From Cymodocea nodosa (taxonomy: Eukaryota > Streptophyta > Magnoliopsida > Alismatales > Cymodoceaceae): a DNA stretch of 64,000 bases. Location of the stretch: assembly GCA_036874045.1 (NCBI GenBank), contig JAZBRI010000008.1, forward strand, positions 13,407,001 through 13,471,000. Reading direction: 5' to 3'. Every line of letters starts with the position of its first letter. Within the stretch, counting starts at the first letter, position 1. Under the pieces are notes generated by a model that was given only the letters and a program-made list of their open reading frames with translations, had not been told where the DNA came from and did no database searches. The position numbers and the translations under genes are program-made. Positions 18,361-55,017 of the stretch are shown here, in pieces.

Positions 18361-18751
18361 ATGTTTACAGAAAGTTTAGCTGTAAATATGTCTCAAGATT
18401 TATATACTGTGTAATCATTTTTTTGATTAATGACGAAAAGGGGGAGATGATTATAAATTCAAAAAGAGGGAGATGATTATGAGTTTAATTGCATATATTA
18501 TAAACGGAAAAGATAATTATGTGGTTATTAAAATCTGAAAGATACTTATGTAATTATTGACATCTGAAAGTTTTTATTTCTGAGAGGTAAATTTTACACA
18601 AACAATAGAAATAAGCTTAAGTAAACCTAAGTCAACAAACAAGTTTGTTGAATTAAAAAAAAAAAATTAACCCAACGAAGGTGCTTTGTTGAGTTATATA
18701 TATTTCATAAATGATTTAATATGGTTTTGTCAACATCAAAAAGGAGAAGAT
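18361..18751 (+). other. B' 3' noncoding region with polypurine tracts
   Basis: This continues 16613-16731 after the solo LTR. It holds a tract AAAAGGGGGAGATG near 18436, AAAGAGGGAGATG near 18463, and the LTR-adjacent tract AAAAAGGAGAAGAT at 18738-18751. It is homologous to 14205-14634 of B. No gene is visible. Confidence 0.75.
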
Positions 18752-24953: not shown

Positions 24954-24955
24954 AT

Positions 24956-24966
24956 TGGTATCATAG
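24956..24966 (+). promoter_or_regulatory. Primer binding site, A2
   Basis: TGGTATCATAG lies two bases after the 5' LTR. It matches the complement of the initiator-Met tRNA 3' end apart from one base. Confidence 0.87.
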
Positions 24967-25006
24967 TAGGTTGATCTCTTTTCTATAGATTTAACCATCT
25001 AAGATC

Positions 25007-30813: not shown

Positions 30814-32370
30814 AATTATATTATCATTTTTTTTCTTTTTAAACATCTATTATCCTAAATTTTCCAATATGATTTCTAGAATAAATTTCAACTACATATG
30901 AATCAAAACACAATCCAACTCAATATGATTAAAACAAGTAGAATAATGAATTGTATCTCAAATAAACATCTTCAAAAGTCTAATCTAGATTCATACTTTA
31001 GTAATATTAGATAACAGAAAATATACTCGATTCAAAAGATTTCTATATTTCACAAAACACTTTTATCTTTTCAGAACAGTATATACATATTTGTACTTTA
31101 AAAGTTAATTTGAAAAGCTTGAATCGTACAAGAGCTTTCTAGTGTACCCATGTATTGAGCTTTCAGTCAACAATCCTAGATCCAATTAGGATCTTAAGTT
31201 GCCAGATTTAAAGAGTCCTTTTTCAAGTCAACAATCCTTGCTTACCTATCTACTCAAGTACAAAAGGCTCGTGATCAAACAAATCAATAAACTCTCAAAG
31301 TTTTTCTCTTTTTTTTCTTTTCAACATAGTATATATACGTATTTCATTAATACAGATGTAATAAAACACAAATCTCATATAGTCCTACTTCTATAATTTA
31401 CTGAAAACATGAATCCATATTAATAAGTTCATACTTTTTCTGTAGTTTAATAAGATTTACACAAATCATTCTACAAGTTTAATCAATCAAATTAAATGTA
31501 TCCTTGATCATATGTATTTCATTTAATCTAAAAATCAACATTTTAGCTCTTTTAGGATTTCAGATAATTTACTGAGTTTCAATTAAGCATTCTGATTTCT
31601 TTTTTTTTTAAATCGTGAAACTATTAAACTCATATAATTCAGCAAAAACATAAGATACTATATCTAGATTTGTATTAATAGTAAAATTTGTAGCATCTTA
31701 TATAAGATTCTAAATATAACATTCAAGTAGTTACAGTTCTTAAAAATTTGATAGTTTCAATTATCAGATAATTACAGGAAATTTCGGTTAGTTACAGCAA
31801 ATTCATAATAATAAAAAATTTTCAATTACCACAGCAATTTGCAGCACAATCCTAGTTTCTCTAATTAACAAAATTACTTGGATTTAATCTAATTACCTCC
31901 CCCCCATACCTACACTTTACATTGTCCTCAATGTAAAAGATTTTACAATAAATGTAGTAAATGTTAGCAGGCATGAATATTGTTTCATTGACTTAGCACC
32001 TAACTCAACGAACTTAATTCATTGAGTTAATGAATAACTCCATGAACTGTGTTTGAATGTAAATTCAGGATAAGTAATTAATTACATACCTTGTTCTTTT
32101 GTATCTCCTTCAATATCTTCCAACTTTTGATTCTAAAAAACTTTTCATTCACACATAAAAGCATAATATATAACAAAATAACATTTAACAACAAAACATA
32201 TATTGTTAAATCAGTGTCTTGTGTGCAACTCAGGCTTCTATGCCTTTGGTGGCTTACAAGCAAGCCAATTGGTTTTCCAGAATAAATACCAACAAACTTG
32301 ATTAATATTTTGTTTTTTTTCTAAAAATCAATGTAGAGTACACACAACATTAAAAATACAAAATCATAGT
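30814..32370 (-). other. D spacer downstream of the F-box ORF
   Basis: With 23175-23424 (split off by A2) this forms the 3' noncoding part of D. It contains the Copia/gypsy-shared block (31090-31270: AAAGCTTGAATCGTACAAG, GCCAGATTTAAAGAGTCC, AGTACAAAAGGCTCGTGATC), an internal pyrimidine tract CCTCCCCCCCATACC at 31896-31910 (a PPT on the minus strand), an inverted motif near 31990-32050, and a conserved noncoding stretch at 32215-32292. No gene is visible. Confidence 0.7.
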
Positions 32371-33503: not shown

Positions 33504-33721
33504 CTGTTGTGATTTTGTATAACATAAACAAAATTTAAGTAGAGATAAAATTAACATAGCTACTTACATATCCTCTTGGAGTTAGGTCATAACTCAACAA
33601 ACTAAGTTCGTTGAGTTAAGTAATAACTCTACAATATTACTAACTATAATTAAACTTAAATTTTTTTCTTTTTATATTTTCTACTTACTATATTATACAT
33701 AGTTACTTCAGTTATACTACT

Positions 33722-35070
33722 TCATTCAGCTTCCCTCCCATAGGAGGTATCAATTTCATTCACAGTTCTATTGACAAGGTTAGGCACCACTTGCATTAGC
33801 AATCATCTAGTATGTCTAACTTATTTTGATTTCTTTTGTCTAGGGGGTATATTTCTATTCATATTTTGATTTTGAATGGCAGCATTTCCAAATACATGAT
33901 CTAGACAATTGTTTAATTGTTGAATTATCTTTTCTAACTTCTCTATTCTATATCCTTGTTCAATTAATGCTTCATAACTTATATTTTTGTCATTTATATT
34001 TTCTCCTCCCTAGAAATTGCTATTTCTCCAAGATAGGTTCGAGTGATTTCTCCAATTAGGTTTATAAGAATTTCCAAAGTTATCTTTTCTGGTTCCTAGC
34101 ATAAATAATATCTAAGTCATTAATGTTTGCATTCTTTTCTACTAACTTTTGATTTAATGATAACTCTTCTATTTTCTTTGTTAACTCAGTTAATTTAACT
34201 TCAAGCATAGTGCTTGAATCTATTTCATGCATTCCCCTAGGTCATATTCTTTTATCTGGAATAGTTTCAGCTAAGTTTTCCCATTGTGTAGTTCTTTTTA
34301 CAAAGTTTTCTAAGTATGCCTATGCTTCTTCACTACATAGTTTTAGAAATCCATTCTGACAAGTAGATTCTAATAAAGATTTCGTTGAAACATCTATGCC
34401 TTCATAAATTATACCTATTAATTGTGCTTTACTCATTGCATGATGTAGGCATTGAGTTAGTAAATCTTTAAATCTTTCAAAATATTTCCAGAATGATTCT
34501 CCCTATTTTTGGTTACACATTAATATTTCCTTTTCTTTTTAATTGTTTGATGTGTTGGATAATATTTTTCTAGAAAAATAGAGCAAAATTCAGTCCATGC
34601 AGAAATTGAATAAGGCAACAGAGTATATAACCATCTCTTAGTTGTGTCTTTTAAAGCAAAAGAGATATATCTAAGTTTAATAGCATCAATACTCATGTTC
34701 GGCATTTTCATCATTTGACAAACTTTGATAAATTCTCTAAGGAAATAATAGGCATCTTCTCTTTCTAATCCATGAAAGTGTAGCAATTGACTAATATAAT
34801 TAGATTTCAATTCAAACCTATCTCCCTCAAAGTTTGAAAATGAATACATGAAGGTTCATCAAATAATTCAGGATATAAAATTTCCCCTAATGGTTTTTCT
34901 ACTAGAGCAATCATATCTTCGTTCTCTTTTAAAGAAAGGTTAGCTACACCCTTAAGGATTTCATTAAAGTCCAATTCATAAAGTATTTCAGTACACCTCT
35001 ATGTTGAATAATCTTGTCTAGGTGTTCTTACTAATCGTTTAGTGCTAGGAGAACAGATCCATGTGCTCAT
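33722..35070 (-). pseudogene. gag: Gypsy capsid-like gag ORF, broken (D copy)
   Basis: The start is the ATG at 35070, equivalent to 41598 in C. The retrotransposon gag domain is clear: FELKSNYISQLLHFHGLERE, AIKLRYISFALKDTTKRWLY, AWTEFCSIFLEKYYPTHQTI. The tail is a helical/asparagine-rich segment like C's. It has stops and at least one frameshift near 34520. The linker 33504-33721 between it and the F-box ORF contains a GTTGAGTTAAG-type inverted motif near 33590-33625. Upstream it joins directly to an LTR end at 35124, so PBS, protease and T32-like ORF are missing from this unit. Confidence 0.85.
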
Positions 35071-35123
35071 AAACTTTTAACATAAAGTAAAATAGCAAAA
35101 GATTAATTACATACCTATAACGG

Positions 35124-35502
35124 TGTTTGTTACTTCTGTTTTTACTTGTTTTTATTTGTCTTTATGCCTATATCAATTACTCTTAGAAGTAAACAAACAG
35201 CCTTTCACACAAATTAGATATTAATTCTAATTTGTATTTTAACTGCAAGTGCACAATGTATATTGTATTTGTGTGCAAGTACAAGTCGATCCATAGAGAT
35301 TGAGTAAGAATTGTGTACTGTTTCGATTTTTTATATTAGAGTATACGTGTTCAGTAAGCACTCCATTGAGTTACAGTTAACACAATGGACTTAGTTCGTG
35401 GAGTTATGGCTAACTCCACGAACTAACCACATGGACTTAAGTTAACTCCATGAGCCTATCTTTCCAGTTAAATACTATTATTTATAGAGGAATTCGGCCA
35501 AC
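35124..35502 (-). repeat. Gypsy LTR of E, 3' segment (split by element C)
   Basis: This is the left segment of an LTR whose other part lies at 47949-49543. It starts TGTTTGTTACTTCTG, where other copies read TGTTTGG, about 37 further bases, then TTTGTTACTTCTG. This fits a deletion between TTTG repeats just inside the terminus. It ends at the C target site CCAAC (35498-35502). Confidence 0.85.
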
Positions 35503-37412
35503 TGTTTAGAATGAAAAAGTGCATATTATTAACGGTTAAATGATGATTAATTGCACAATATTTAACTTATCATATATGAATTAAGCCATTAAGTTATAAT
35601 TGCACTATTATATGCTTTAATTGAAGAATCTACTTAATTTTGGGGAATTAATGTTAATTTAGTACATTTCTGAACTGTCGGTAAGTTGTAGGCTGTGAAA
35701 TTCTTTAGTATCCGAATTTTCTGTTATTTCGGAGAGTTATATTGCATGTACCGGATAGTTATGTTTTAAATGCTAAAAGAATATTTAGGTAAACAATAAC
35801 AACTCGTTGAGTTACAGGTTTAAAGGTATAAAAAGATCACGTGAGAACTCGTTGAGTTAGCGAGTAAAAACCTTAAGTTATATATTTGAACTCGTTAAGT
35901 TAGATTTACGCACGTGTTGAATTTAAATGCTTTAGTATATCACGTGAGATGCACATGTTTAACTCGTTAAGTTAGCATAACTGTACGCGTTTAGTTACAT
36001 GAATACACACTAAGGTAACGCGTTATGTTAGCGGCTTATTTCTTTATTGCACGTATTTTATAGTTAAATCTATTTTCTAAAATGCCATTGTAGCGGTTGC
36101 AGAAACAGGACAGTTGAAAGGAAAAATCACGTTTGCACGTATCGCGCAGGGAAAAGAAATCATCGTCGTTGATATGAATGAAGGAAATCCAACCGATCAT
36201 TCAAGCAGAAGCAGTTACTACTAAAGAAATATAAAAGAAAAGAAGAAAAAAAGAAGAAGGTGTGATCGATGTGTGATCGATGGATGGATAGTGTGTGTAG
36301 AGGAGGATGAGCGTCGCAATTCTCTGAAGTACCACACCAACCACCATAATCACCAACTATCGAAGGTCTGTGACGATACTTGCCTGATGTCGGGTCGATT
36401 TCGAGCCAAACACAGTGCTTGACAACCACTGTAAGGAGTGATCGCGTCGCGGGAAGGGAAGCCATTTTCACCAAGTGCCGACTCATATTTCAAGAGATCG
36501 TAAAGCTTTTAGCCTTGGCTTCGGGTTGATGCCTATATGCTGAAGAGGAGATTATCTTACAATTCTGGACTTGCGATTCTATAGGGAGAGGAGACAGGAT
36601 TGTAAGTGATTTAATTTTCAATGGTGTAATCGCGTTGCAAGTAGTGTCAGAAGTATTTACTGTCAAGTGAGATTACTTTACATTTCACCTTTCGCCCATT
36701 TCCATGTTCACATCAAAACAAAAATACCAAAAGCAATTTATCTTTGTTTGTATATTGTATTTGAGTATTGTATTGTTTGTGTTGTATCGTGATTAATGTT
36801 ATCTGTATCAGTTTTGTGATTGTTTTATGTTAGTTTTAATTTTACAGTTTACTGAAATTGGTTCGTACAAAAGACTTAAAGATTTTAATGGTTACTCTTT
36901 GAATCATCTGAATGTTAGTATTGCTCAATGATAAATCCAATGTTAACTAACATTAAAAAGCTTAATTGATGTTATTTACAATCTGTGGAATCGCCCAATG
37001 GTTGGCCAAATTCCTCTGTAAATAGCAATATTATAAAGAAGAGACAGGCTCGTGGAGTTCACTTAAGTCTACAAGGATAGTCCTTTAAGTTAGCCATAAC
37101 TCAATGAACTTTGTCCGTTGAGTTAACTATAATTCAACGGAGTGCTTATTGAATATAAATTTGAATTGTTAACAATCAAACAGTTCTTAAATTCGTCAGC
37201 AATTCCCTGTGGGATCGACCTGTACTTGCACACTGATACAATAAACACTGTGCACTTGCAGTTAAAGTACAAATTGGAATTAATATCTAAATTGTATTAA
37301 AGGTTGTTTGTTTACTTCTAAAAGAAAGAATAGGCATAAAGATAAATTAACTAAGTAAAAACAGAAGTAACAAATCTAAGTTTTTCTAGTGTAGTGTTGG
37401 GAAAACCAAACA
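35503..37412 (+). repeat. 5' LTR of C (1910 bp)
   Basis: It begins TGTTTAGAATG and ends AAACCAAACA. U3 contains CACGTG at 35838, 35911 and 35941 among AACTCGTTGAGTTA/AACTCGTTAAGTTA units and is homologous to the B LTR U3. An antisense open frame at 36160-36486 lies in a relatively GC-rich stretch and recurs in the other gypsy LTR copies. The 3' part has the GGGATCGACCTGTACTTGC and GTGCACTTGCAGTTAAAG phrases found in many plant gypsy LTRs. Confidence 0.95.
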
Positions 37413-37419
37413 AGTTTTA

Positions 37420-37438
37420 TGGCGCCGTTGCCAGGGAA
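37420..37438 (+). promoter_or_regulatory. Primer binding site, C
   Basis: TGGCGCCGTTGCCAGGGAA lies seven bases after the LTR. This is the tRNA-Asp-type PBS typical of Athila/Tat-lineage gypsy elements. It places the first ORF only about 80 bases downstream. Confidence 0.92.
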
Positions 37439-37516
37439 TTGAATTGATATAAGCAACTGTTAGAGTTATTTCATTTTGATAGCCAGAGTTGTGTGTTTTC
37501 TTTTGTAATAGAGAAT

Positions 37517-39539
37517 ATGGCATATGCTTATGCTCAAAGATTTCTGAAACCTGTAATTAGCATATGTGAATTCTACAATTATGAAGGACACGACATTTCT
37601 GACTGTTTGAAATTGAGACGTTTACAGATGGTTAGATCCCATGAACAACAAATGAATTATCCTCAATATAATAGAGCCGAGTATGAGAATCCTATAGTTT
37701 ACCCAACTGATGGTCAGTATAGAATGTGTAATATGATGAGAGACACTAAAGTTTGGGATAGCTATGACAGACTGGAGCATAGTATAGAGCAAAATTTGGA
37801 CAAACTGGAATACTTTGTGTGTCAACAACAAGAAGTCAACCAGTTAAACTATAAGGAATCATATTCAGAACCTAAACAAGATATAATTTACGAAACTGAA
37901 AAAGCCATAAAGAAAATTGATCAAAAATTGAATGCAATGAAATTAGATGATCTGGAAACAAAATTAAAAGCATTAAATGAAAATGCAATGAAAATACAAG
38001 TTATGCAATAGGACAATGAGAATTATAATGTTATAAACCTGCATAATTTACAAAATATACAGCAAACAGAAAACACTAATGTAAGAGAATTTAAAGAATG
38101 CACTTTAAAACTAAAAACAATTGAAGATCATAATCACGAAAATGATATGCAAAAACATCATGAAAATAATGAAAATCTGGAAGATGTATGTGTAACATTA
38201 AGATCTAGAACAGATATACCACAAGAACTCAAAATGAAAATGATATGAAGGTGGACAAGAGTAAAAATCAAAATGATAATGAAAATGTAATAGCTGAAAA
38301 TCTAGAAATCACTGAAGAACAATCTGAATCTGCGATTGAAGCTAAAAATGATCAAACAAATCAACTGAAAGAAAAAGAGTCTTTGAAATCAAAATCTTTA
38401 GCACCCTATCCTGAAAGATTACAACAAACAATTCTTGAAAGACAAAAGAAAATCAGAGAAATTTTTGAAAAAGTACAAGTTAACATTCCTTTGTTAGATC
38501 TATTGCAGAATATGCCACCTTGTGCAAAATTTCTGAAGGATTGGTGTACTAAGGAAAGAGAGCGAAAAGTTCTTAGAAAGGACTTTTTAGCTGAGCAAAG
38601 TAGTTCCCTATTTCTGCCACAAATTCTTAAAAAGTTATCTGATCCTGGAATCCCTGTTATATCATTCACAATAGGAAATACCATTCTAGAAAGAACCTTA
38701 ATAGACTTAGGTGCAGGTATAAATGTTATGCCAAGTGATATATTTGCATCCTTAGGATTAGAAGGCTTAACTCCTACTAGTACGGTTATTCAATTAGTTG
38801 ATAGAAGTATAAGATACCCTAGAGGAAAAATAGAGGATGTCTTAATTAAAATCAAGAATTTTATATATCCTATTGATATTGTAATTTTGGATTCCCAACA
38901 AATTAAGCATAAAAATAGTGATACATCTTTAATTTTGGGAAGGCCATTTTTAGCAACATCAAGGGCTATTATAAATTGTAAAACTGGAGTAATGAAGTTA
39001 GCATATGGTAATGAGGATACTCAATTAAATATTTTCAAACCAGAAAGCTTTGAGGAGTTAGAAATGTCCTTACATACCATAGACTTTTTAGAGGATGAAG
39101 GAGATATGTTAGATGATGTGATTCAAGAAAAATTAAATAGGCAAATCAATTCTGAAACTTTAGAAGAAAGTGAAAGCATAAATATAGAAGGAGATTAGGA
39201 AGAAATTAATTTAAAAAATGATGATGTTCAATTAGGAGTTCTAACTTCTAATGGGTAGCATTTAGAATTAAAACATTTACCTCCTGAATTAACTTATATA
39301 TTTCTAGAAGATAAACGAACTTGTCCAATCATCATTACTTCAGATTTAAAAGAAGATCAAATAGCTAAATTAAAAGATGCAGTAAAAAGTTATAAAGAAG
39401 TAATAGGATGGACTATGACTGATATAAAAGGGTTAAGTTCAACTTTATGCTATCACCACATATATTTAGAAGAGAATGTTAAACCTGTTAGAATTCCTGA
39501 GAGGAGAATAAATCCAAACCTTAAAGAAGTAGTCAGGAG
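37517..39539 (+). pseudogene. gag-pol: Nucleocapsid-like gag, protease and truncated RT (C)
   Basis: The likely start is ATG 37517 (MAYAYAQRFLKPV). A knuckle at 37565-37606 reads C-E-F-Y-N-Y-E-G-H-D-I-S-D-C, with the second cysteine replaced by tyrosine. A stop at 38009 and a frame change follow. The conserved VTLRS motif lies near 38190. The open frame 38245-39198 contains the retropepsin: catalytic D-L-G-A-G at 38704, then RYPRGKIEDVLIKI and LILGRPFLATSRAI. After two stops the RT N-terminus is readable (YIFLEDKRTCPIIITSDL, IGWTMTDIKGLSS, RRINPNLKEVV). It then fuses at about 39535 to T32-like sequence, removing the RT catalytic core, RNase H and integrase. No capsid domain lies upstream of the knuckle; that part is found downstream at 41598. 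Confidence 0.88.
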
Positions 39540-40646
39540 GAAGAAGAAAGAGCAAAAAATGAAGAGGCTGAAAGAAGCCATTTGGACAAAAATAATTTCA
39601 CAGATTCCACTAAAGAGCAAGAAACTCTTCAGCAAATTATGGAAAGAATTCAAGACAGAGTGGAGAGTTCTGCCGGCTCACCACCACAAACAGAAGCAAA
39701 AGCAAAAATTCAGGAATCTAAAGAGAATGTCCAAATGCAGCCTATGCTAGAGGAAGAACAAGTACAAACCCCTCTAGAGCAACAAAGTCACCTTCTTAAC
39801 CTGACTGAAATAACAATTTTGAATGAAGTACATTTTTGTAGTCAGGAAGCTTATACCAAATACCAAGAAATAAGAGGTTACGATATTCTTTACAATAGAC
39901 CAGTAAATTAGGATGGAATGCATGAAATCAAAGATCTATTTGAATTCCAAGGTCTACTACAATTTATATCTCAAGAAAGAGGGCATGTAGTATATGAAAA
40001 TTTAGTGCCCTGTATTTATGCAAATTTGAGAGAAAGAGAAGGAGGATTAATTTCAAATGTGGAGGAAGTTGATGTACAGATAACACTAGAGCTTCTCCAC
40101 AACATATTTGGTTTAAAGAATGAAGGAACAAAAATTTTGGAAGATACAACTGCAGTTGAATGGACTGAGCAGCAAATTAAGGATTGTTTAGTTATCAATC
40201 CTAGTGTGCCATTATTAAATAGATTGAAGCATTTAAATGGTAAAGCACACATGGTAGCTAACATTCTGATTAAGAATGTCTATCAACGACAAGGCCATGA
40301 CATAGAATTAAGTCAATTTGTCAAATGGGTCACGTATGCAGTTGTAAATAAGATCCAAATAAATTGGTCTGTAGTTTTTATCTCCAAGCTGAAAACAGTG
40401 AAGAAGAAATTATTTTATGGAGATTTGATTCCACTGCTGATGGTGGATTGTATTGATTTCACTAAATGGACATCAAAAAAGATCAGATCTAGAACTATTT
40501 CAGTGAAAGAATACAGAAATTTTGTAGCTGCAGAATTAGCTGTACCTTCTAGAGAAATTGCAGGAGCAGTAGAGGGGATAAATCAATTAGAGCAACAATT
40601 AGAAAAACTCCAGAATGAAGTAGATGAACTTAGGCATAAAGATTAA
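39540..40646 (+). pseudogene. T32-like ORF (C), nearly open
   Basis: This is a homologue of the third ORF of Copia B. The fusion point with RT falls in an acidic segment (EEERAKNEEAE); the N-terminal half known from E is missing. Then comes a Q/E-rich part (KEQETLQQIMERIQDRVESS), one in-frame stop at 39909, and an open frame from 39918 to 40646. The conserved core has HEIKDLFEFQGLLQFISQ, CIYANLREREGG, LHNIFGLKNEGTKI, AHMVANILIKNVYQRQGHDI, INWSVVFISKL and KKLFYGDLIPLL. It ends in a predicted coiled coil (QLEQQLEKLQNEVDELRHK). The role is unknown; no catalytic motif, signal peptide or membrane segment is visible. Confidence 0.75.
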
Positions 40647-41597
40647 ATTGTATTGTTCGTCTACTTGTGTAAAATAGTATGAAATTGTATGGTGTACTTG
40701 TAATGTAATTGATTCATATTAATAAATATAATTTTTTAGATGCAATTTTCATACGTGTTTGGATGTGAAATGAATGGAATTTATTGAATATTATGTAATT
40801 TGTGGAACTTTATGAATGAATATGTAATAGATTTACAATTTGCTGAATGACAAGATAACTACTTAAAAATTTCTATATGTTATAAGGTAAAATGTAAATT
40901 CTGCATAACATAAAATGACCTGCAAGTTAAATATTTATATAATGTTCAGATTTAAATGTATTTTAATCAAAATGAGGCATTAATGACATAGATTTAACTT
41001 TATTACAGTTAGCAGAATGATAGAGCAAATAAAAAAAAACAGAATAGAAACACTTACGAGAGTGAAGCTTAGAAGTTGCCAAGTGTTAACTCAACGAAGT
41101 AAGTCCGTTGAGTTAACCGTAACTCCACGAGGTCAGTAATATAATATAAGTCACTCCGTTGAGTTATCTGTAACTCAACGAAGTTAGTCCGTGGAGTTAG
41201 CAACAGTAACTAACTATGTTTTGTTGAGTTTTTTGTAACTCAACGAAGTTAGTTCGTGGATTAAGCAGAATGGTTATTCTTTTAACCACGAACGAAATTT
41301 CATCGGTTTAGCGGTTACCAAAATTTGAAATTAGTAGTGGTACACGTACCCATAAAAATAGGAACCACGATGCACATTGCAAGACACGTTCTTGCAATGA
41401 AATTTATTCACTTTATGGATGCACAGTATATATATGAAACAGAATGTTATTTACGAGTTACCAGCACTTTCAAAAGAAAGGAGAAAGTGTTGGAGGAATT
41501 GGAAGGAGAAGCAGCTGATTCAAGTTCATCCGACAACAAATATTTATAGAATGGAAAGCTTCAGACTGGTATGTAATCAATCTTCTGCTATTTATTT
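40647..41597 (+). other. C noncoding region before the capsid-like gag
   Basis: It is AT-rich to about 41080, then holds an array of inverted motifs (41085-41270), then a less AT-rich stretch homologous to 54060-54340 of E. An open frame at 41325-41549 has no recognised domain and is not maintained in E, so it is more likely leader than gene. ACTGGTATGTAAT at 41568 resembles a plant 5' splice site; the same GTATGTAA phrase is present at the equivalent place in D and as GTATGTAAT in E. Confidence 0.6.
41085..41180 (+). promoter_or_regulatory. Perfect short inverted repeats between ORFs of C
   Basis: GTTAACTCAACG (41085-41096) and its exact complement CGTTGAGTTAAC (41106-41117) flank a 9-base loop. 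CGTTGAGTTA (41157-41166) and TAACTCAACG (41171-41180) flank a 4-base loop. Related copies continue to about 41260. The same motifs occur in the LTR and before the F-box ORF. The role is unknown; they could be factor-binding sites or RNA hairpins. Confidence 0.7.
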
Positions 41598-42941
41598 ATG
41601 AGCACATGGACTCGTTCTCCTAGCACTAAACGATTAGTAAGAACACCTACCCAGGAATTTTCATTGCAGAGGAGTATTGAAAAATTTTCTGAACTGAACT
41701 TTAACGAAATTCTTTGGGGTGTAGCTAACCTTTCTTTAGAAGAGAACGTAGAGATGACTGCTTCAATAGAAAAACCATTAGGAGAAATTCTGTATCCTGA
41801 ATTAATTGATGAATCTTCATGTATTCAATTGCCAAACTTTGAGAGAGATAGGTTTGAACTGAAATCTAATTACATTAGTCAATTGCCACATTTTCATGGA
41901 TTAGAAAGAGAGGATGCCTATTATTTCCTTAGAGAATTTAACGAAGTTTGTCAAATGATGAAAATGCCAAACATGAGTATAGATGCTATTAAACTTAGAT
42001 ATATCCCTTTTTCTTTAAAAGACACAGCTAAAAGATGGTTATATACTTTATCGCCTGATTCAATTTCTACATGGACTGAATTTTGCTCTATTTTTCTGGA
42101 AAAATATTATCCGACACATCAAACGATTAAAAAGAAGAAAGAAATATTAATGTGTAGCCAAAACCAGGGTGAATCATTCTGGAAATATTTTGAAAGATTT
42201 AAAGATTTACTAACTCAATGTCCATAACATGCAATGAGTAAAGCATAATTAATAGGTATAATTTATGAAGGCATAGATGTTTCAACGAAATCTTTATTAG
42301 AATCTACTTGTCAAAATGGATTTTTAAAATTATGTAGTGAAGAAGCATGGGCATATTTAGAAAACTTTGCAAAAAGAACCGCACAATGGGAAAATTCAGT
42401 TGAAGCTATTGCAGATAAAAGAATATTGCCAAGAGGAATGCATGAAATAGATTCCAATACTATGCTTGAGGTGAAATTAAATGAATTAACAAAGAAAATA
42501 GAAGAGTTATCATTAAATCAAAAGCTAGCAGAAAAGAATACAAACATAAATGACTTAGATATTATTTATGCTAGAAACCAGAGAGATAACTTGGGAAATT
42601 CTTATAATCCTAATTGGAGAAATCACCCAAATTTATCTTGGAGAAACAACAATTTCTAGGGAGGAGAAAATATAAATGAGAAGAACATAAGTTATGAAGT
42701 ATTAATTGAACAAGGAGCTAGAATAGAGAAATTAGAAAAGATAATCCAACAAGTAAACAATCGTCTAGAATTTATATTTGGAAATGCTGCAATTCAAAAT
42801 CAGAATAGAAATATATCACTTAGACAGAAGGAACCAATGGAAGTTAGACCTACTAGAGGATTGCCAATACAAGCTATACCTAATCCTATCAATAGAACGA
42901 TTAATGAAATTGATACCTCTTCTGGGAGGGCAGTTGAATGA
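41598..42941 (+). pseudogene. gag: Gypsy capsid-like gag ORF, broken (C copy)
   Basis: The start is the ATG at 41598 (MSTWTRSPSTKRLVRTP). The gag domain spans about residues 80-230: FELKSNYISQLPHFHGLERE, AIKLRYIPFSLKDTAKRWLY, TWTEFCSIFLEKYYPTHQTI, GESFWKYFERFKDLLTQCP. It continues in the same frame with stops at 42225, about 42246 and 42657 through a helical, asparagine-rich tail (YNPNWRNHPNLSWRN) to 42941. In ordinary gypsy elements this domain precedes the zinc knuckle and protease at the 5' end. Here it lies downstream of the T32-like ORF and in front of the F-box ORF, and D and E keep the same order. Confidence 0.88.
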
Positions 42942-43129
42942 AGCAGCATATCTGAAGTAACTATCTGTATGTATATATGTTTTATTTTTAGTTAATAGTA
43001 TCGTAGAGTTAATTTTTAACTCAATGAACTTAGTCCGTTGAGTTATGCCTTAACTCCATGAGGGTGTGCAGTAGTTATGTTAATTTTTGTCTCTGCTAAA
43101 TTTTTGTTTGTGTTATATAGAATCGGCAA
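42942..43129 (+). other. Linker between capsid-like gag and F-box ORF (possible intron)
   Basis: It contains GTATGTATATATG at about 42967, a pyrimidine/T-rich stretch, TTTTTAG at about 42986, the inverted motif TAACTCAATGAACTTAGTCCGTTGAGTTA around 43017-43045 (given in two parts: TAACTCAATG and CGTTGAGTTA), and TGTTATATAG at 43111-43120, ten bases before the F-box ATG. The GTATGT and TATAG ends look like plant intron borders, but splicing is inference. Confidence 0.45.
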
Positions 43130-44269
43130 ATGGAATTGATGCAATTATTATTGGATGCACTAAGAGAAGTATTAAGTAACTTGTCAGCTAAAGATTTGTG
43201 CAGGCTGTGTTGTGTATCAAAGGAAATTAAAGACTGTATTGAAGAAAAATATTTTCAGGGACTACAAGCTGCAAAAATGACTAAGATTAGGGAATGATTC
43301 ATATAGAGGTCATTTAATCGTAGTTCAAATACCCATGAATATCTAACTATGGAAGAAACTACTAGAATTCCACCCAATGCATTAGAAGGAATAAATCATA
43401 TTATGGGGATAGATGAAGGATTAATCATATACAAGACGAGACCAAGGTATACAAGTTTATTATTACTGGATATTTTGATAAGAAATCCTATAACTGGAGA
43501 AGAATGGAATATAGGAAGACCTAATAGATTTGAAGCACTAATTGTAAATTGTGGGTCAGCTTTAATATTTTCTGATAAAAATTCGGCAATTCCTGAAAAA
43601 TTATATTATTGGAGACCTACAGGAAATTGGGGTAAAGATTTACGCTTAAGTGTGTATAATTTTCTAAACAGATCTTGGAATGAAAACATTATAATATATC
43701 TAGGACAGAAATCATTAATTAACCAAACACATGCCATACTTGATGGATATATCTATTTAGTCACGGAGATATCATTAGCATATGGATCTGATTTATACAT
43801 AGTGAGCATAGACAGTTATGATGATTATATAGAAATTTTACCTGTACCGAGTGAAATATCTAAACCACCATCTGCAGAATTTAATGAAATTCAAATAGGA
43901 ATGTGGTATAATGAAAAAGATGATCCTACTTTATGTTTGATAAGATGGTGGGATGAACTAATGAAATTTCAAATATGGATTATGGAAGACATAAATGAAT
44001 GGAAGTGGGAAGAGGAGTATATTGAAATAGATGTAGAAATAGAAACTGCTACATTACCTTGGAACCAGAAAGGATCCCTTTCTGCATTACATATCATTAA
44101 TGGTAATACACTCGTATTTGGAATTTATAATATATTGCATGTTTACAAATTAAGAAGGAACAAGAACTACATTAAAATAGAATTAATAGCAAGAAGAACT
44201 ATGCCTAAAAAGTTTGTTTGGACTGATACATTTATTCCATTTGTTTCTATTTTTCAATCATGTTCTTAA
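43130..44269 (+). pseudogene. F-box protein gene inside gypsy element (C copy)
   Basis: This is a 380-codon frame from ATG 43130 to the TAA at 44269. The F-box domain (LDALREVLSNLSAKDLCRLC, then VSKEIKDC) occupies about residues 8-45, and an F-box-associated-like domain fills the rest (ITGEEWNIGRPNRFEA, SVYNFLNRSWNEN, DLYIVSIDSYDDYIEILPVP, DPTLCLIRWWDELMKFQIWI). Only two stops interrupt it, TGA 43295 and TAG 43304, just after the F-box. The remaining 306 codons from 43349 are open. Family knowledge: such proteins recruit targets to SCF ubiquitin ligases. It lies inside a unit with matching target duplications, so it was mobilised with C. The original host locus is not in the window. Confidence 0.88.
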
Positions 44270-46006
44270 GCTGTGATTTTGTGTGTTTAATGTTGTGTAT
44301 TCTGCATTTATTGTTAAAAAAAAAAATTATAGTTTTCATTTTTATTTTATTAAAAAAAAGAAAAAAAACAAACAAAATATCAATCTAGTTTGTTGGTATC
44401 TGTTTTGGGAAACCAACTGGCTTGCTTGTGAGCCACCAAAGGCATAAGAGCCTGGGTTCCACATAAGACACTAATTTATTAATATCTGTTAAATGTTATT
44501 TTGTTTTATATTCTGTGTTTATCTAGGAATCAAATGTTTTTCAGAATCAAAAATCAGAATATGCAGAAGGAGATACAAATGGAACAAGGTATGTAACCAA
44601 TTACTTATCCTGAATTTTAAAACTGTATTCATGCCTGCTACAATTACTGTACTTATTGTCAAACTCTTTACATTAAGGACAATGCAAAATGTAGGTATGG
44701 GGGGGAGGTAATTAAAGTAACAGCCATGTAAGTTTGTTAATTAAAGAAATTAAAATAGTACTGCAAAGTTTTGAGGAAATTGAAAATTTTATGAACTTAC
44801 TGTAACTATCCGATAATTGAGACTGTAAAATTTTTTATAAACTGCTTGAATGTTATATTTAAAAGGCTATATAAGATGCTATTGAATTTAATAGTTATGC
44901 AAATCTAGATATAGTATCTTATGTTTTTTCTGAATTTCATGAGTTTAACAGTTTCACAATTTTAAAATGAAATCAGAATGCTCATTGAAAAATCAGTAAA
45001 TTATTTGAAGTCCTAAAAGAGTTGAGATGTGAATTCTAGATTAAATGAAACACATGATTAAAGATACATCTAATTTGACTGATTGAACTTGTAGAATGAT
45101 TTATGTGTAGATCTTATTAAACTACAGAAAAAGTTTGAGCTTATTGTTATGAATTCATATTTTCAGTAACTGATAGAAGCAGGACTATATGAGATTGGCG
45201 TTTTACTGCATCTGTATTAATGAAATACATACATATATAGTATGTGATTAATGTTTTGTTTTGTGTTGGTAGTTTTGATTGAAAAAAAAATAAGAAAAAA
45301 AAATAAATTTGAGAGTTTATTGACTTGTTTGATCACGAGCCTTTTGTACTTGAGCAGATAGGTATGTAAGGATTGTTGACCTGAAGAAGGACTCCTGAAA
45401 TCTGGCAACCTAAGATCCTGATCAGATCTGGGATTGTTGATTGAAAGCTCGTTACATGGGTACATTAGAAAGCTCTTGTATGATTCAAGCTTGTCAAATT
45501 AACTTTTAAAGTACGAAAAAAAAGAAGAAAAAATAATAAATACATATACTGTTCTGAAAAGATACAAGTGTTTTGTGAAATACAGATATCTTATGAATCG
45601 AGTATATTTTCTGTTATCTAGAATTGCTGAAATATGAATCTGGAATTGACTTTTGAAGTTGTTTAATGGAGATACAATTCTTTATTCTACTTGTCTTAAT
45701 CATATTGAATTAGATTGTATTTTGATTCGTATGTTGTTGAAATTTCTTTTAGAAATCTTATTGGAAAATTCAGGATGTCAAATGATGAAAAGAAGAACAA
45801 ACGATAATATAATTAACACCTACATGATGATGATATACTTTGTATGTAATTTACATATATTCTAAGTATCTTTGCAGGTTGATTACAGAAACATACAGAA
45901 TATATTTTTATGCTAAACAGAAGAAAAACAAAAGGGGAAGAATTAATTCTAGCACTTTTAAAGACCAATTAATTAGATCTTAGTTTGCTAAGGGACTAGC
46001 AAAATT
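44270..46006 (+). other. C 3' noncoding region
   Basis: It contains a conserved stretch (44389-44470) with two small hairpins (GGCT-8-AGCC at 44419-44434 and GCC-6-GGC at 44432-44443), a GTATGTAACC phrase at 44590, an internal polypurine tract TAGGTATGGGGGGGAGG at 44692-44708, and about 1 kb (44830-45800) homologous to the spacer of Copia B. Open frames at 44493-44711 and 45653-45865 lack recognisable domains and are not kept in D or E. Confidence 0.7.
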
Positions 46007-46021
46007 TAGGTATGGGGGAAG
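46007..46021 (+). promoter_or_regulatory. Polypurine tract, C
   Basis: TAGGTATGGGGGAAG directly abuts the 3' LTR and would prime plus-strand synthesis. Its first ten bases (TAGGTATGGG) repeat at the internal tract 44692. Confidence 0.88.
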
Positions 46022-47948
46022 TGTTTAGAATGAAAAAGTGCATATTATTAACGGTTAAATGATGGTTAATTGCACAATATTTAGCTTATCATATATGAAT
46101 TAAGCCATTATGTTATAATTGCACTATTATATGCTTTAATTGAAGAATCTGCTTAATTTTGGGGAATTAATGTTAATTTAGTATATTTCTTAACTGTCGG
46201 TAAGTTGCAGGCTGTGAAATTCTTTAGTATCCAAATTTTCTGTTATTACGGAGAGTTATATTGCATGTACTGGACAGTTATGTTTTAAATGCAAAAAGAA
46301 TATTTAGGTAAACAATAACAACTCGTTGAGTTACAGGTTTAAAGGTATAAAAAGATCACATGAGAACTCGTTGAGTTAGTGAGTAAAAACCTTAAGTTAT
46401 ATATCTGAACTCGTTAAGTTAGATTTATGCACGTGTTGAATTTAAATGCTTTAGTATATCACATGAGATGCACATGTTTAACTCGTTAAGTTAGCATAAC
46501 TGTATGCGTTTAGTTACATGAATACACACTAAGGTAATGCGTTATGTTAGCGGCTTATTTCTTTATTGCATGTATTTTATAGTTAAATCTATTTTCTAAA
46601 ATGCCACTATAGCGGTTGCAGAAACAGGACAGTTGGAAGGAAATACCACGTTTACACGTATCACGTAGGAATTCAATCGCGCAAGGAAAAGAAATCATCA
46701 CTGTTGATATGAATGAAGGAAATCCAACCGATCATTCAAGCAGAAGCAGTTACTACTGAAGAAATATAAAAGAAAAAAAGAAGAAGGTGTGATCGATGGA
46801 CGGACAATGTGTGCAGAGGAGGATGAGCATCGCAATTCTCTGAAGTACCACACCAACCACCATAATCACCATCATCACCACCATAATCACCAACCATCGG
46901 AGGTCTGTAAGGATACTTGCCTGATGTCGGGTCGATTCCGAGCCAAACACAGTGCCTGACAACCATTGTGAGGAGTGATCGCGTCGTGGGAAGGAAAGCC
47001 ATTTTCACCAAGTGTCGACTCATATTTTAGGAGATCGTAAAGATTTTAGCCTTGGCTTTGGGTTGATGCCTGTATGCTGAAGAGGAGATTATCTTGCAAT
47101 TCTGGACTCGTGATTCTATAGGGAGAGGAGACAGGATTGTAAGTGATTTAATTTTCAATGGTGTAATCGTGTTGCAAATAGTGTCGGAAGTATTTACTGT
47201 CAAGTGAGATTACTTTACATTTCACCTTTCGCCCATTTCCATGTTCACATCAAAACAAAATACCAAAAACAATTTATCTTTGTTTGTATGTTGTATTTGA
47301 GTGTTATATTGTTTGTGTTGTATCGTGATTAATGTTATCTGTATTAGTTTTGTAATTGTTTTATGTTAGTTTTAATTTTATAGTTTACTGAAATTGGTTC
47401 GTACAAAAGACTTAAAGATTTTAATGGTTACTGTTTGAATCATCTGAATGTTAGTATTGCTCAATGATATATCCAATGTTAACTAGCATTAAAAAGCTTA
47501 ATTGATGTTATTTACAATCTGTGGAATCGCCCAATGGTTGGCTGAATTCCTTTGTAAATAGCAATATTATAAAGAAGAGACAGGCTCGTGGAGTTAACTT
47601 AAGTCTACGAGGATAGTCCATTGAGTTAGCCATAACTCAACGAACTTTGTCTGTTGAGTTAACTGTAATTCAAAGGAGTGCTTATTGAATATAAATTTGA
47701 ATTGTTAACAATCAAACAGTTCTTAAATTCGTCAGCAATTCCCTATGGGATCGACCTGTACTTGCACACTGATACAATAGACACTATGCACTTGCAGTTA
47801 AAGTACAAATTGGAATTAATATCTAAATTGTATTAAAGGTTGTTTGTTTACTTCTAAAAGAAAGAATAGGCATAAAGATAAATTAACTAAGTAAAAACAG
47901 AAGTAACAAATCCAAGTTTTTCTAGTGTAGTGTTGGGAAAACCAAACA
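46022..47948 (+). repeat. 3' LTR of C (1927 bp)
   Basis: It begins TGTTTAGAATG and ends AAACCAAACA. It aligns with 35503-37412 over the full length with scattered substitutions and small indels, such as extra bases near 46670 and a TCATCACCACCATAA expansion near 46865. The antisense open frame recurs at 46736-47023. Confidence 0.95.
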
Positions 47949-49543
47949 CCAACCATTGGGTGGTTCCATAGATTGTAAATAACATCAATTAAGCTATTTA
48001 ATGTTAGTTAATATGAGATTTATCATTAAGCACTACTAACATTCAGATATTTCAAATAGTAACCATTAAAATATTTAAGTATCTAGAATGATTCAATTTC
48101 AGTAAACTATAAAATTATTTTCTATTTTCTGAATCAAACAATCATAAAACATTCACAATACTGATAATGATAACATTAATCACAATACAAAACAAACAAT
48201 ACAACACTTTAATACTAAATGTAAACACAGATAAGTTATTGTTTTTGATATTTTTGTTTTGATATGTTCTTGAAGATGAGCGAAAGGTGAAATGTAAAAA
48301 TCTCTATCGACAGTAAATACTTCCGTCACTACATGCGATGTGATTACACCACTAAAAACATAATCACTTACAATCCTACCTCCTCTCCCTATAGAATCGT
48401 GAGTCCAGAATTGTAAGATGATCTCCCCTTCAGCATACTAACATCAACCCAAAACCAAGGCTAGAAGCTTTACAATCTCTTGAGATATGAGTCAGTGCTT
48501 GGTGAAAATGGCTTCCCTTCCCGTGATGCGATCACTCCTCACAATGGTTGTCAGGCATCGTGTTTGGCTCATAATCGACCCGACATTAGGAAAGTATCCT
48601 CACAAACATCCAATGGTTGGTGATTATGGTGGTGGTGTGGAGCTTCAGGGAACTTCCAACGCTACCTGTAGTTAGCACGGTCCTCCACCTCTACACACAC
48701 ACCCTTTCTTCATCTTTCTCCTCTTCTTTTATATTTCTTTCTATAGTAACTGCTTTTGCTTAGATGATCAGTTGGATTTCCTTCATTCATATCAACAATA
48801 GTGATTTCTTCTTCATTCCACAAGTAAATTCCTACGTGATACGTGTGGTCGTGGTTTTCCTTTGAATGTCTTATTTCTGTAACTACTACAATGGCATATT
48901 AGAAAATAAATGGTCCATGGAATTACAAATAACTCAACGGACTTACTTTATTGATTTAACTATAAAACACGTGCAATCAAGAAATAAGCTGCTAACATAA
49001 CATGTTATCTAAGTGTGTATTCATGTAACTCAACGTGTACAGTTATGCTAACTTAACGAGTTAAACATGTGCATCTCATGTGTTATACTAAAGCATTTAA
49101 ATTCAACACATGCATAATTCTAACTTAACGAGTTCAGATATTTCGGATAATTAAAAATCTAACTATCCGATGCTTAGATGCATTTCGGATAGTTAGCAGA
49201 TAACTTACCGAAAATCCACTTAAATCATGCATTAAGGTTTCAACATGTGTATTCCAGGAAATAATAAAATATTCATTTAAAACATAACTATCTAGTACAT
49301 TAAACATAACTCTCTGAAATAATAGAAAATTCGGATACTTAAGAATTTCACAGCCTATAATTCACCGACAGTTCAAAAATGTACTAAATTAATGTTAATT
49401 CCCTGAAATTATGCAGATTCCTTCATTAAAGCATATAATAGTGCAATTATAACATAATGGCATAATTCTTATATGATAAGCTAAATATTATGTAATTAAC
49501 CATCATTTAACCCTTAATATTATGCACTTTTTCATTCTAAACA
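47949..49543 (-). repeat. Gypsy LTR of E, 5' segment (split by element C)
   Basis: This continues 35124-35502 across the C insertion, resuming with the duplicated CCAAC. On the minus strand the LTR begins TGTTTAGAATG at 49543. Motif arrays and CACGTG-like boxes lie at 48960-49150. The conserved antisense frame is at 48487-48675 (plus strand because the LTR is reversed). Confidence 0.9.
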
Positions 49544-51316
49544 CTTCCCTCATACTTAAATTTTGCTAGTCCCTTAGCAAACTAAGATCTAACTAGTTGG
49601 TCTTTCTAAAGTTGCTAGAATTAATTCTTCATTTTGTTCTTCTTCAAAATACATAAATTAGATTACTATATAGATATTCTGTATTTTTCAGTAATCTATT
49701 TTAATTTTTTTTTCTCCTCTCCAACCTACTAATATATTTAGAACATATGTAAATTGCATACAAAATATATTAGCATCATATAGGTGTTAATTATATTATC
49801 ATTTTTCTTCTTTTCAACATCTGTTATCTTGAATTTTCCAATATTAATTCCAAAATAAATTTCAACTACTTACGAATCAAAACACAATCCAATTCAATAT
49901 GATTAAAATAAGTAGAATAAAGAATTATATCTTAGATAAACAACTTCAAAAGTCTATTCTAAATTCATACTTCAATAATCTTAGATAACAGAAAATATAC
50001 TCGATTCAAAAGATATCTATATTTCACAAAACACTTTTATCTTTTTAGAACAGTATATGCATATTTGTATTTTAAAAGTTAATTTGAAAAGCTTGAATCA
50101 TACAAGAGTTTTCTAGTGTACCCATGTATCGAGCTTTCAGTCAACAATCCCAGATCTAATCAAGATCTTAGGTTGCCAGATTTAAAGAGTCTTTTTTTCA
50201 AGTCAACAATCCTTACATACCTATCTACTCAAGTACAAAAGGCTCGTGATCAAACAAGTCAATAAACTTTCAACGTTTTTTCTCTTTTTTTTTTTTTTTT
50301 TATCAACACAGTACATATATACGTATTTCATTAATACAAATGTAATAAAACACAAATCTCATATAGTCCTGCTTCTATTATTTACTGAAAATATGAATAT
50401 ATATCAATAAGCTCATACTTTATCTGTAGTTTAATAAGATTTACACATAAATCATTCTACAAGTTTAATCAATCAAATTAAATGTATCCTTGATCATATG
50501 CATCTCATTTAATCCAAAAATCAACATTTCAGCTCTTTTAGGATTTCAGATAATTTACTGAGTTTCAGTTAAGCATTTTATTTTCTTTTTAAAATCGTGA
50601 AACTCTTAAATTCATAAAATTCAGCAAAAACAGAAGATACTATATCTAGATTTGTATGAATAGTAAAATTTTGTAGCATCTTATATAAGATTCTAAATAT
50701 AACATTCAAGCAGTACCATAAAAAGTTTCAATTTCCAAAGAACTTTTGCAGTACCATTCTAATTCCTCTAATTAACAAAATTACATGGCTGTTAATCTAA
50801 TTACTTCCCCCCATACCTACATTTTGCATTGTCCTCAATGTAAAAGATTTTACAGTAAATTCAGTAAATGTTAGCAGGCAGGAATATTGTTTCGTTGACT
50901 TAGCACCTAACTCAACAAACTTAATTCATTGAGTTAATGAATAACTCCATGAATTGAGTTGAAATGTAAATTTAGGATAAGTAATCAATTACATACCTTG
51001 ATCTTTTGTATCTCCTTCCATATCTTTCGATTTTATTTTTTTTCTAAAAAACTTTTCATTCACAAATAATAGCAGAATATATAACAAAATAACAAAACAT
51101 AACTTGTTAAATCAATGTCTTGTGTGGAACCTAGGCTCCTATGCCTTTGGTGGCTCACAAGCAAGCCAATTGGTTTCCCAAAATAGATACCAACAAATTG
51201 GATTGATATTTTGTTTTTCTTTTCTTTTTCTTATAAAATAAAACTAAAACTAAAATTTTTCTTTTTCAAAAAATAAATGCAAAATACACACAACATTAAA
51301 ATTACAAAATCACATT
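49544..51316 (-). other. E 3' noncoding region
   Basis: It begins at the LTR with a purine tract (minus-strand GAGGGAAG). The Copia-shared spacer block lies at about 49810-50700 (GTACAAAAGGCTCGTGATC near 50233). The internal tract is at 50800-50820 (plus-strand CTTCCCCCCATACCTAC). An inverted motif lies near 50900-50950, and the conserved hairpin-bearing stretch is at 51117-51194. A T-rich run lies near 50283-50302. No gene is visible. Confidence 0.72.
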
Positions 51317-52677: not shown

Positions 52678-54026
52678 TCATTCAGCTTCCCTCCCATAGG
52701 AGGTATCAATTTCATTAACAATTCTATTAACAAGGTTAGGTATTACTTGCATTGGCAATCCTCTAGTAGGTCTAACTTCCATTGATTCCTTTTGTCTAGG
52801 GGGTATATTTCTATTCATATTTTGATTTTGAATGGCAGCATTTCCAGATACAAGATCTAGATGATTATTTAATTGTTGGATTATCTTTTCTAACTTCTCT
52901 ATTCTAGATCCTTGTTCAATTAATACTTCATAACTTATTTTTTTATCATTTATATTTTCTCCTCCCTAGAAATTATTGTTTCTCTAAGATAGATTCAAGT
53001 GATTTCTCCAATTAGGGTTATAAGAATTTTCAAAATTATCTTTCTAATTTCTAGCATAAATAATATCTAAGTGATTAATGTTTGCATTCTTTTTTGCTAG
53101 TTTTTGATTTAATGATAACTCTTCTATTTTCTTTGTTAATTCAGTTAATTTAACTTCAAGCATAGTGCTTGAATCTATTTCATGCATTCCCCTTGGCAAT
53201 ATTCTTTTATCTGTAATAGCTTCAGCTAAGTTTTCCCACTGTGTAGTTCTTTTTGCAAAGTTTTCTAAGTATGCCCATGCTTCTTCACTACAAAATTTAA
53301 AAAATCCATTTTAGCAAGTAGATTCTAATAAAGATTTTGTTGAAGCATCTATGCCTTCATAAATTATACCTATTAATTGTGCTTTACTCATTGCATGATG
53401 TGGACATTGAGTTAGTAAATCTTTAAATCTTTCAAAATATTTCCAAAATGATTCTTCCTATTTTTGGCTACACATTAATATTTCCTTTTTCTTTTAATCG
53501 TTTGATGTGTTGGATAATATTTTTCTAGAAAAACATAGCAAAATTCAGTCCATGCAGAAATTGAATCAAGTGACAAAGTATATAACCATCTCTTAGCTAT
53601 GTCTTTTAAAGAAAAAAGGATATATCTAAGTTTAATAGCATCTATACTCATGTTCAGCATTTTCATCACTTGATAAACTTCGTTAAATTCTTTAAGGAAA
53701 TAATAGGCATCTTGTCTTTCTAATCCATGAAAGTGTGGCAATTAACTAATATAATTAGATTTCAATTCAAACCTATCTCCCTCAAAGTTTGGCAATCGAA
53801 TACATGAAGGTTCATCAACTAATTCAAGATACAGAATTTCCCCTAATGGTTTTTCTATTGGAGCAGCCATATCTTCATTCTCTTTTAAAGAAAGGTTAGC
53901 TACACCCTTAAGGATTTCGTTAAAGTCCAGTTCAGAAAATATTTTAGTATGCCTTTGTGTTGAATAATCCTGTGTAGGTGTTCTTACTAATCGTTTAGTA
54001 CTAAGAGAATGAATCCATGTGCTTAT
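52678..54026 (-). pseudogene. gag: Gypsy capsid-like gag ORF, broken (E copy)
   Basis: It is equivalent to 41598-42941 of C, but the start codon position reads ATA. The domain is readable as HFHGLERQDAYYFLKEFNEV, AIKLRYILFSLKDIAKRWLY and AWTEFCYVFLEKYYPTHQTI, then stops and a frameshift near 53475, then the asparagine-rich tail. The length matches C to within a few bases. Confidence 0.85.
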
Positions 54027-55017
54027 AAACTCTTAACATAAAGTAAAGTAGCAGAAGTTTAATTACATACCAGTTTGAAGCTTTGTTTTCAGTAAATAGT
54101 TGTTGACGGATGAAGTTGAATCAGCTACATCTCCTTCCAATTCCCCAACGAATTTTCATTCCTCTCCTTAAGTGCTGGTAACTTGTAAATAACATTCTAT
54201 TCTCTACTTATAATGCACGTCCATAAAGCAAATGAATCTCGTTGCAAGAACGTGTCTTGTAACGTGCAGTGTGGTTCCTATTTTTATGGATACATGTTCC
54301 ACTTCTAATTTTAAAATTTTAGTAACTACTAAACCCATGAAGTTTTGTTCATGGCTAAAAGAATAACTATTTAGCTTAATCCACGAACTAACCTCGTTGA
54401 GTTATAGTTAACTCAATGGACTAGCTTCGATTACTATTTGCTAACTCCACGGACTAACTTCATTGAGTTACAGTTAACTCAATGAAGTGACCTTATATTT
54501 TATTACTGACCTTGTGGAGTTAAGGTTAACTCAACGAACTTACTCCGTTGAGTTAACACTTGGCAAATTTTCTAACTCTTACTCCTTATATTAACTTCTA
54601 TTTTATTTTTTTTTTCCTGCATTTTGTCAACTTAAATAAAGTTAAATACATGTCATTACTACAGTGTTCTAATTTAAACTCATTTAAATATGAACATTAT
54701 ATGCATATTTAACTTACAATTCATTTCATGTTATGCAAAATTTACATTTTACTTTTCAACATGTAGATACTTTCAAGCATTAACCCATTATCTTGCATTT
54801 AATCCTATCATTCAGCAAATTTGTAAATCTTTTAAACAGTCTTGCACATTGTTCAAACAGCTATATAATATTCAAGATAGTTCTCTATTATATCATTCTC
54901 AAACACGAATGAAAAATACATCTGAAAAACATTCATTCATTTATATGAATAGTTTACATTACAATCAATTAGATATTTTTCATACAAATATAAGTACAAG
55001 TAGACGAACAATACAAT
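54027..55017 (-). other. E noncoding region between T32-like ORF and capsid-like gag
   Basis: This is the homologue of C 40647-41597. Inverted motifs lie at about 54390-54560 (for example CGTTGAGTTATAGTTAACTCAA near 54403, of which CGTTGAGTTA and TAACTCAA are the arms). A leader-like stretch lies at 54060-54340. The open frame 54690-55034 on the plus strand overlaps only noncoding parts and has no domain. Confidence 0.65.

Follow-up and report, generated by a model that had tools for sequence, protein, structure and literature searches.

The element and its F-box gene

The window analysed here, a stretch of 64,000 nucleotides on contig C8 of a 374.6-Mb assembly (28 contigs, one genome), contains an LTR-bounded element of 12.4 kb at 35503-47948, referred to below as element C, which has the LTR pair, primer site, polypurine tract and target-site duplication of an LTR retrotransposon. 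Its two LTRs of about 1.9 kb (35503-37412 and 46022-47948, both +) possess TG...CA ends and are 95.5% identical over 1890 gap-free columns (K 0.047), and the 5-bp target-site duplication CCAAC is found on both sides (35498-35502 on the left, 47949-47953 on the right), as the earlier note had read it. A primer binding site at 37420-37437 (+), which we take to be of the tRNA-Asp type, follows the 5' LTR, and a polypurine tract at 46009-46021 (+) precedes the 3' LTR. Between them lie, all on the + strand, a 5' ORF with a zinc knuckle (37448-38008), where element C reads CEFYNYEGHDISDC and the copy c2a reads CEFCNSEGHDISDC, a protease region (38209-39195), the C-terminal part of ORF2 (39918-40646), for which no Pfam family was found above cut-off, and a GT-AG intron of 1552 bp (41569-43120), which contains a capsid (gag CA) region. 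This region (41598-42813, its 3' limit being approximate) is open to 42227 in element C and is gag-like, matching PF03732 with an E value of 9.5e-16. The intron is followed by the F-box frame of 379 codons, which runs on the + strand from an ATG at 43130 to a stop ending at 44269, matches PF00646 (E 8.7e-8, 32.2 bits vs. a cut-off of 20.5) and is interrupted by in-frame stops at two codons, 56 and 59.

Element C is inserted within an LTR (35126-35502 plus 47949-49798) that is common to two older elements, D and E, both of which contain regions similar to the capsid-like ORF and the F-box of C in the same order on the - strand. The capsid region of E (52812-54029, with a splice donor near 54070) is accompanied by an F-box frame at 52444-51320, which shows 75% amino acid identity to that of C and has stops at codons 93, 162 and 270. 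The capsid region of D lies at 33661-35115, where the similarity ends at the intron donor, and the F-box of D (33503-32374) is matched in two pieces with 73% and 71% amino acid identity to C, and is damaged by stops at codons 160, 166 and 206 and by a frameshift near 32650. The earlier note, which described an F-box ORF behind a capsid-like ORF in C, E and D, was thus right about the place and about the domain; however, the term ORF is too strong, because all three window copies are broken. The one LTR that D and E have in common is split by the insertion of C, and these two form an LTR-internal-LTR-internal arrangement. In three copies on another contig (c18a, c18b and c18c), bases similar to the primer site come after the 3' LTR, so that shared-LTR arrays may recur.

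PF00646 was found in 12 of the 14 F-box rows scanned, the other two being C-terminal pieces, and the match of the copy L016 reaches 35.2 bits vs. the curated cut-off of 20.5. The C-terminal part of the protein gave weak matches only, to FBA_1 in one of the 14 rows (E 0.013) and to FBA_3 in four (best E 2.1), no PDB match was found by sequence, and the predicted structure of this part was useless (pLDDT 29.8). A model of the first 100 residues of the D protein places helices at 8-16, 20-29 and 31-47 in the F-box stretch (mean pLDDT 57.8); the three best PDB matches of this model come from SKP1-FBXO22 entries, F-box proteins bound to SKP1, though at E values of 2.3-2.9.

Gene order and classification of the full element

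Ten of the 39 further copies listed in the genome search described below were fetched, each as two overlapping pieces. In six of them (c19a, c9, c18a, c18b, c18c and c6b), about 4.1-4.4 kb lies between the parts that match element C up to 39528 and from 39529, and translations from four copies together with a Pfam scan of pieces from two showed that this extra DNA encodes RT, RNase H and integrase; in the other four, the block from RT to integrase is partial or other losses are present. PF00078, PF17917, PF17921 and PF00665 occur in order in the fuller copies, where they come after a protease that is weakly recognised (E 0.04 in c6b), giving the order protease-RT-RNaseH-integrase of Ty3/gypsy elements. 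In element C, RT, RNase H and integrase have been deleted at 39528/39529. Splicing was rejected as an explanation of this loss, since the 4321-bp gap shows short shared sequence at its junction rather than GT-AG ends. The idea that a stop and a start codon overlap just before the capsid ORF was abandoned as well, because the upstream frame differs among copies.

The gene order is 5' LTR, zinc knuckle-protease-RT-RNaseH-integrase-ORF2-capsid-F-box, 3' LTR, and the full element is estimated at about 16.8 kb, as the sum of the 12.4 kb of C and 4.3 kb rather than from a single assembled sequence. In C, c2a, c7a and c6a, the 5' LTR runs into the zinc-knuckle ORF, and a capsid could not fit ahead of it; this part is deleted in c6c, and the sequence fetched for the remaining five copies does not reach the 5' LTR. 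Thus, the 5' ORF begins at the zinc knuckle and the capsid sits 3' of pol. The capsid ORF, which the earlier note had called gag, is indeed gag-like by its PF03732 match, but in the fuller copies its location is not that of a usual gag, and because the order with capsid 5' of protease is not found, the family is filed as Athila-like only. A single RNase H region in the scanned pol pieces agrees with Athila and separates the family from Tat; no additional RNase H was found in these pieces or in the two scanned open stretches that separate integrase from ORF2 in c6b, and a decayed copy may lie elsewhere. We therefore describe the family, by these features rather than by an RT tree, as abundant Athila-like Ty3/gypsy elements. 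In one subfamily, with L016, L022, L025, c2a (L033) and c7a (L039), a shared deletion of 2.3 kb has removed most of ORF2; its breakpoints are near-identical and have no GT-AG ends.

Abundance and transposition

The earlier note had counted three copies of the F-box gene; instead, 35-base tags with at most 3 mismatches detected thousands of places in the genome, namely 3432 (F-box), 3517 (capsid) and 3570 (RT), against none with the reversed controls. In a DNA search, the best 40 of 4397 candidates scored consisted of element C and 39 further matches at 96% identity. In the part of contig C1 that both tag lists cover, 21 of 39 exact F-box tags are preceded on their own strand by an exact capsid tag no more than 5 kb away, 19 of these at 1.26-1.32 kb; none is followed by one, and for two a capsid tag in the opposite orientation lies at up to 5 kb. 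For exact RT tags, the capsid tag lies downstream within 12 kb in 27 of 63 cases, 14 of them at 6.4-6.8 kb, and upstream in seven. Both sets of pairing counts are lower bounds, because the lists hold exact matches only.

Three insertions that enclose the F-box between LTRs possess different 5-bp target-site duplications, CCAAC in C, ACTTG in c2a and CTATT in c6c; the two flanks of c6a differ, and in the remaining seven copies one or both ends are uncovered. Older copies (L051-L054) were also detected, with 50-66% amino acid identity over most of their length; the capsid region lies upstream of the F-box in L052 and L053, and in the 3.1-kb loci of L051 and L054 the match is to the capsid 3' end or spacer only. 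The proposal that the F-box was cargo at a fixed place, captured before the family amplified, is supported by the 3432 tags, the upstream capsid tags on C1, the three duplications and the older copies. Neither of the two outcomes named beforehand as evidence against it was observed as stated: the F-box lies inside the element borders in all three insertions with different target sites, and the copies are dispersed, although some of them are indeed segmental duplicates. A segmental duplication limited to the three window copies was rejected on the target-site duplications and the genome tags. Among L031-L050, c18a, c18b and c18c (contig C18) and c6a and c6b (contig C6) are segmental duplicates, with 3' flanks that are 98.8-99.8% identical over 1.3 kb (99% for the former three, 98.8% for the latter pair), and lie far apart on one contig.

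An intron that contains the capsid ORF

Four of the 30 close copies, a set which includes C as L001, are devoid of the capsid ORF: in L016, L022, L025 and L028, ...GCTTCAGACTG is joined directly to AATCGACAAATGG, with GATTG as a junction variant in L025 and GCTTTAGACTG in L028. In the unjoined copies, GTATGT comes directly after the first of these two sequences, and a T-rich stretch and then AG lead up to the second. The AG acceptor is present in 25 of the 30, four are exactly joined, and one (L018) has an imprecise deletion. The donor GTATGT was found in nine of the ten fetched copies plus C and E, and the intron measures 1450-1553 bp in these nine; the tenth, c6c, has no intron. In the older copies, the acceptor AG is kept in E, L052, L053 and L054 and mutated in D and L051. 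Genome tags detected 202 joined junctions and 1944 unjoined donors (controls 0); some of the 202 must be copies inherited from earlier events, and only four junctions were read.

In the F-box tree, L016, L022 and L025 fall in a clade (support 94) with the unjoined L024 and L029, and L028 stands elsewhere. The 2.3-kb deletion common to the former three is absent from L028, which indicates at least two separate intron losses. The copy c6c, the same locus as L016, is LTR-bounded, has a target-site duplication and has lost the intron exactly from GT to AG, which means that spliced element RNA was reverse-transcribed and inserted. As judged from genomic copies, the precise intron loss in at least two lineages shows that the element must at some time have been transcribed, spliced and reverse-transcribed. 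In the joined copies, the frame starts with MESFRLNRQ ahead of the 379 amino acids and becomes a frame of 388; it is open in L016, and L022, L025 and L028 have stops in it. Not every subfamily has this added start, since E lacks an ATG at this place. Neither the position of the capsid inside an intron nor the gene order with capsid behind pol had been part of the earlier note.

At 35060-35130 (- strand), element D lacks everything between the 5' LTR and the intron, so that LTR sequence is followed by about 12 unexplained bases and then by exactly GTATGTAATTAATC, the first bases of the intron. This junction could stem from a splicing intermediate (lariat intron plus 3' exon) used as template, or be chance.

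Selection on the F-box

The 379-codon frame is open in ten of the 30 close copies, C being among the 30; one of the ten begins with ATA and two are segmental duplicates of each other. To compare old subfamilies, a codon model was applied to seven copies (L016, L003, L010, D, E, L051 and L053; L052 and L054 were left out, covering less than half), which gave an omega of 0.37 for the F-box vs. 0.83 and 1.43 in frames +1 and +2. The log-likelihood was -3429.2, vs. at best -3470.7 with omega fixed at 1 under four kappa values, a difference of about 83 units of 2 delta lnL. The F-box is thus under purifying selection across subfamilies, which supports the suggestion of the earlier note that it served the element. 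Corresponding values were 0.30 for the capsid in its own seven-copy set (wrong frames 1.39 and 1.58), 0.36 for ORF2 in six copies (0.86 and 0.95) and 0.46 for RNaseH-integrase in four (0.92 and 1.34), so that constraint on the F-box roughly equals that on ORF2 and falls slightly short of that on the capsid. All these values are conservative, because decay after insertion inflates them.

Over 34 mostly recent copies, the F-box omega was 0.53. Among the 30 close copies, nonsynonymous and synonymous changes in the F-box number 124:38 as singletons, 51:16 when present in 2-4 copies and 31:16 when present in five or more, with a neutral ratio of about 3.1 and a Fisher p of 0.18 for the last class vs. 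singletons; stops in the same classes number 15, 6 and 0. The capsid gave 143:34, 49:31 and 16:14, with 10, 8 and 4 stops. Constraint on the F-box among the close copies is weak.

Proposed role and rival explanations

These results lead us to propose that the F-box is very probably a resident gene of an Athila-like element with alternatively spliced RNA, encoding an SCF adaptor that benefits the element. The unspliced RNA would carry the capsid ORF, and removal of the 1.55-kb GT-AG intron would join upstream sequence to the F-box exon and yield the 388-amino-acid frame; the protein would then most likely recruit substrates to SCF ubiquitin ligases of the host and so direct a protein to degradation, to the element's benefit. 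SCF adaptor activity appears likely from the domain match, and we infer SKP1 binding, ubiquitin ligase activity, benefit to the element and origin from a host gene. One point counted against this explanation is that a ribosome would have to reach an F-box ORF lying far downstream, while no leader intron was found in the ten fetched copies. The poorly assigned C-terminal domain, the weak constraint among the close copies and the stops in three of the four joined copies also count against it. The F-box gene was probably captured. No host donor gene appeared among the at most 150 scored matches listed, which are dominated by element copies. An ordinary host F-box gene with an open frame of 452 codons, L055 (contig C19 near 2185034), shows no tblastn similarity to the element F-box.

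An F-box gene trapped once could instead have been carried along by an active lineage without serving the element. LTR elements with transduced genes have been described (parts of PMC7264820), and the broken window copies and the weak constraint among recent copies fit such passive cargo; however, recorded cases involve one or a few copies, whereas 3432 F-box tags are found here, the omega of 0.37 across old subfamilies stands well apart from the wrong frames, constraint on the F-box is close to that on ORF2 and the capsid, and the acceptor AG is kept in the older E, L052, L053 and L054, though lost in D and L051. Passive cargo is therefore unlikely. Less probable still, and indeed very unlikely, is that the intronless copies are mere deletions or represent an ancestral form that gained the capsid block afterwards. 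The family does contain deletions whose junctions show short shared sequence (the 4321-bp gap of C and a 4231-bp gap of c6a), and in L018 the same region is imprecisely deleted, but the exact GT...AG ends with no flanking bases lost, the occurrence in at least two lineages, the derived tree position and the presence of the block in the older E and L053 argue against this rival.

The notion that segmental or tandem duplication, and not transposition, produced the copies gains something from the near-identical flanks within the c18 and c6 groups and from the LTR common to D and E. It is nevertheless extremely improbable: the family occupies thousands of places on many contigs, the 3' flank of c2a shows no similarity to that of c6c, nor that of c9 to that of c6a, and for C, c2a and c6c the notion is already refuted by three different target-site duplications. 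A rival closer to our proposal is that the F-box acts in the element's own life cycle, through turnover of the capsid, integrase or ORF2 protein or as a limit on copy number, rather than against host defence. Splicing takes the capsid ORF out of the RNA with the joined F-box frame, so that the two may be alternative products; we regard this role as possible but rather doubtful.

Within the proposal of a resident SCF adaptor, a factor of RNA silencing or chromatin silencing might be the target, which is a tentative guess by analogy. Viral F-box-like suppressors and a host F-box protein acting on AGO1 make such a target plausible, no more. An extended reading, also tentative, is that gag is split, with the capsid behind pol in an intron and a captured F-box as the 3' exon, and that the choice of splicing might switch between particles and SCF-mediated degradation of a host protein, perhaps a silencing factor. 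If true, this would amount to a plant transposon counter-defence through the ubiquitin system.

Relation to known elements and silencing suppressors

Long LTRs are typical of Athila/OTA elements, and element C resembles them in this respect. Athila, Calypso and Bagy2, all from this group, possess extra ORFs between pol and the 3' LTR, whereas Diaspora has none. Extra ORFs are well documented in plant gypsy elements (parts of PMC7264820 and PMC6317226); OTA elements mostly carry them, and Athila has no additional RNase H (parts of PMC6317226). Sense ORFs after pol, as found here, are described, with splicing reported for Bagy2 (parts of PMC7264820), and Calypso and Diaspora have a primer site of the tRNA-Asp type, as in C (PMC1142308, in part). 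Unlike in Athila/OTA elements, the capsid ORF lies after pol inside an intron here, and the last ORF is an F-box gene rather than env-like.

Phalaenopsis gypsy elements with an AlkB (2-ODD) RNA demethylase ORF provide a parallel with a different domain, in that an acquired cellular-type enzyme was kept over several subfamilies. The same source, a screen of 121 angiosperm genomes, reports 15 extra domains and, in the parts consulted, names nine of them: PMD, G-patch, AIR1, DUF1409, YgdH, L26/KOW, B3, ArgoL2 and 2-ODD (PMC9289625); the word F-box is absent from its main text. Among the titles and abstracts listed in searches of the open literature, no LTR element with an F-box or with the capsid behind pol was found, and as far as seen, an F-box-bearing gypsy family with the capsid behind pol is new.

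Polerovirus P0 and crinivirus p22 are silencing suppressors with an F-box-like motif that meets host SKP1 (parts of PMC6593998 and PMC6784205), although the part played by SKP1 binding is disputed for P0 (PMC6593998, in part). The likeness is one of description, and the viral suppressors have short F-box-like motifs whereas the element protein matches PF00646 above cut-off. The host proteins FBW2, which acts on AGO1, and UCL1, which acts on CURLY LEAF, reduce the levels of silencing proteins as SCF adaptors or E3 ligases and are likewise similar by description (parts of PMC9035678 and PMC4331533).

Extra gypsy ORFs are often of unknown use, whereas this one has a recognisable biochemical role, selection and genomic signs of splicing, which raises the question of which protein a transposon wants degraded. 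The order with the capsid in an intron is a second surprise for retroelement biology. In addition, the thousands of F-box-like sequences that the family adds to the genome could bias counts of F-box genes and may give rise to new host genes.

Other repeats in the window

A different repeat family at 23425-30814, with the pairs 23425-24029/28107-28715 and 24077-24954/29937-30814, sits between the 3' LTR of D and the rest of D and is apparently a nested insertion. At 13664-20272, a block of about 2 kb occurs in direct repeat with 86% identity (14195-16182 and 18361-20272). Two open stretches, 7240-8121 (+) and 62582-63199 (-), resemble by eye the integrase and RNase H/RT parts of Ty1/copia elements.
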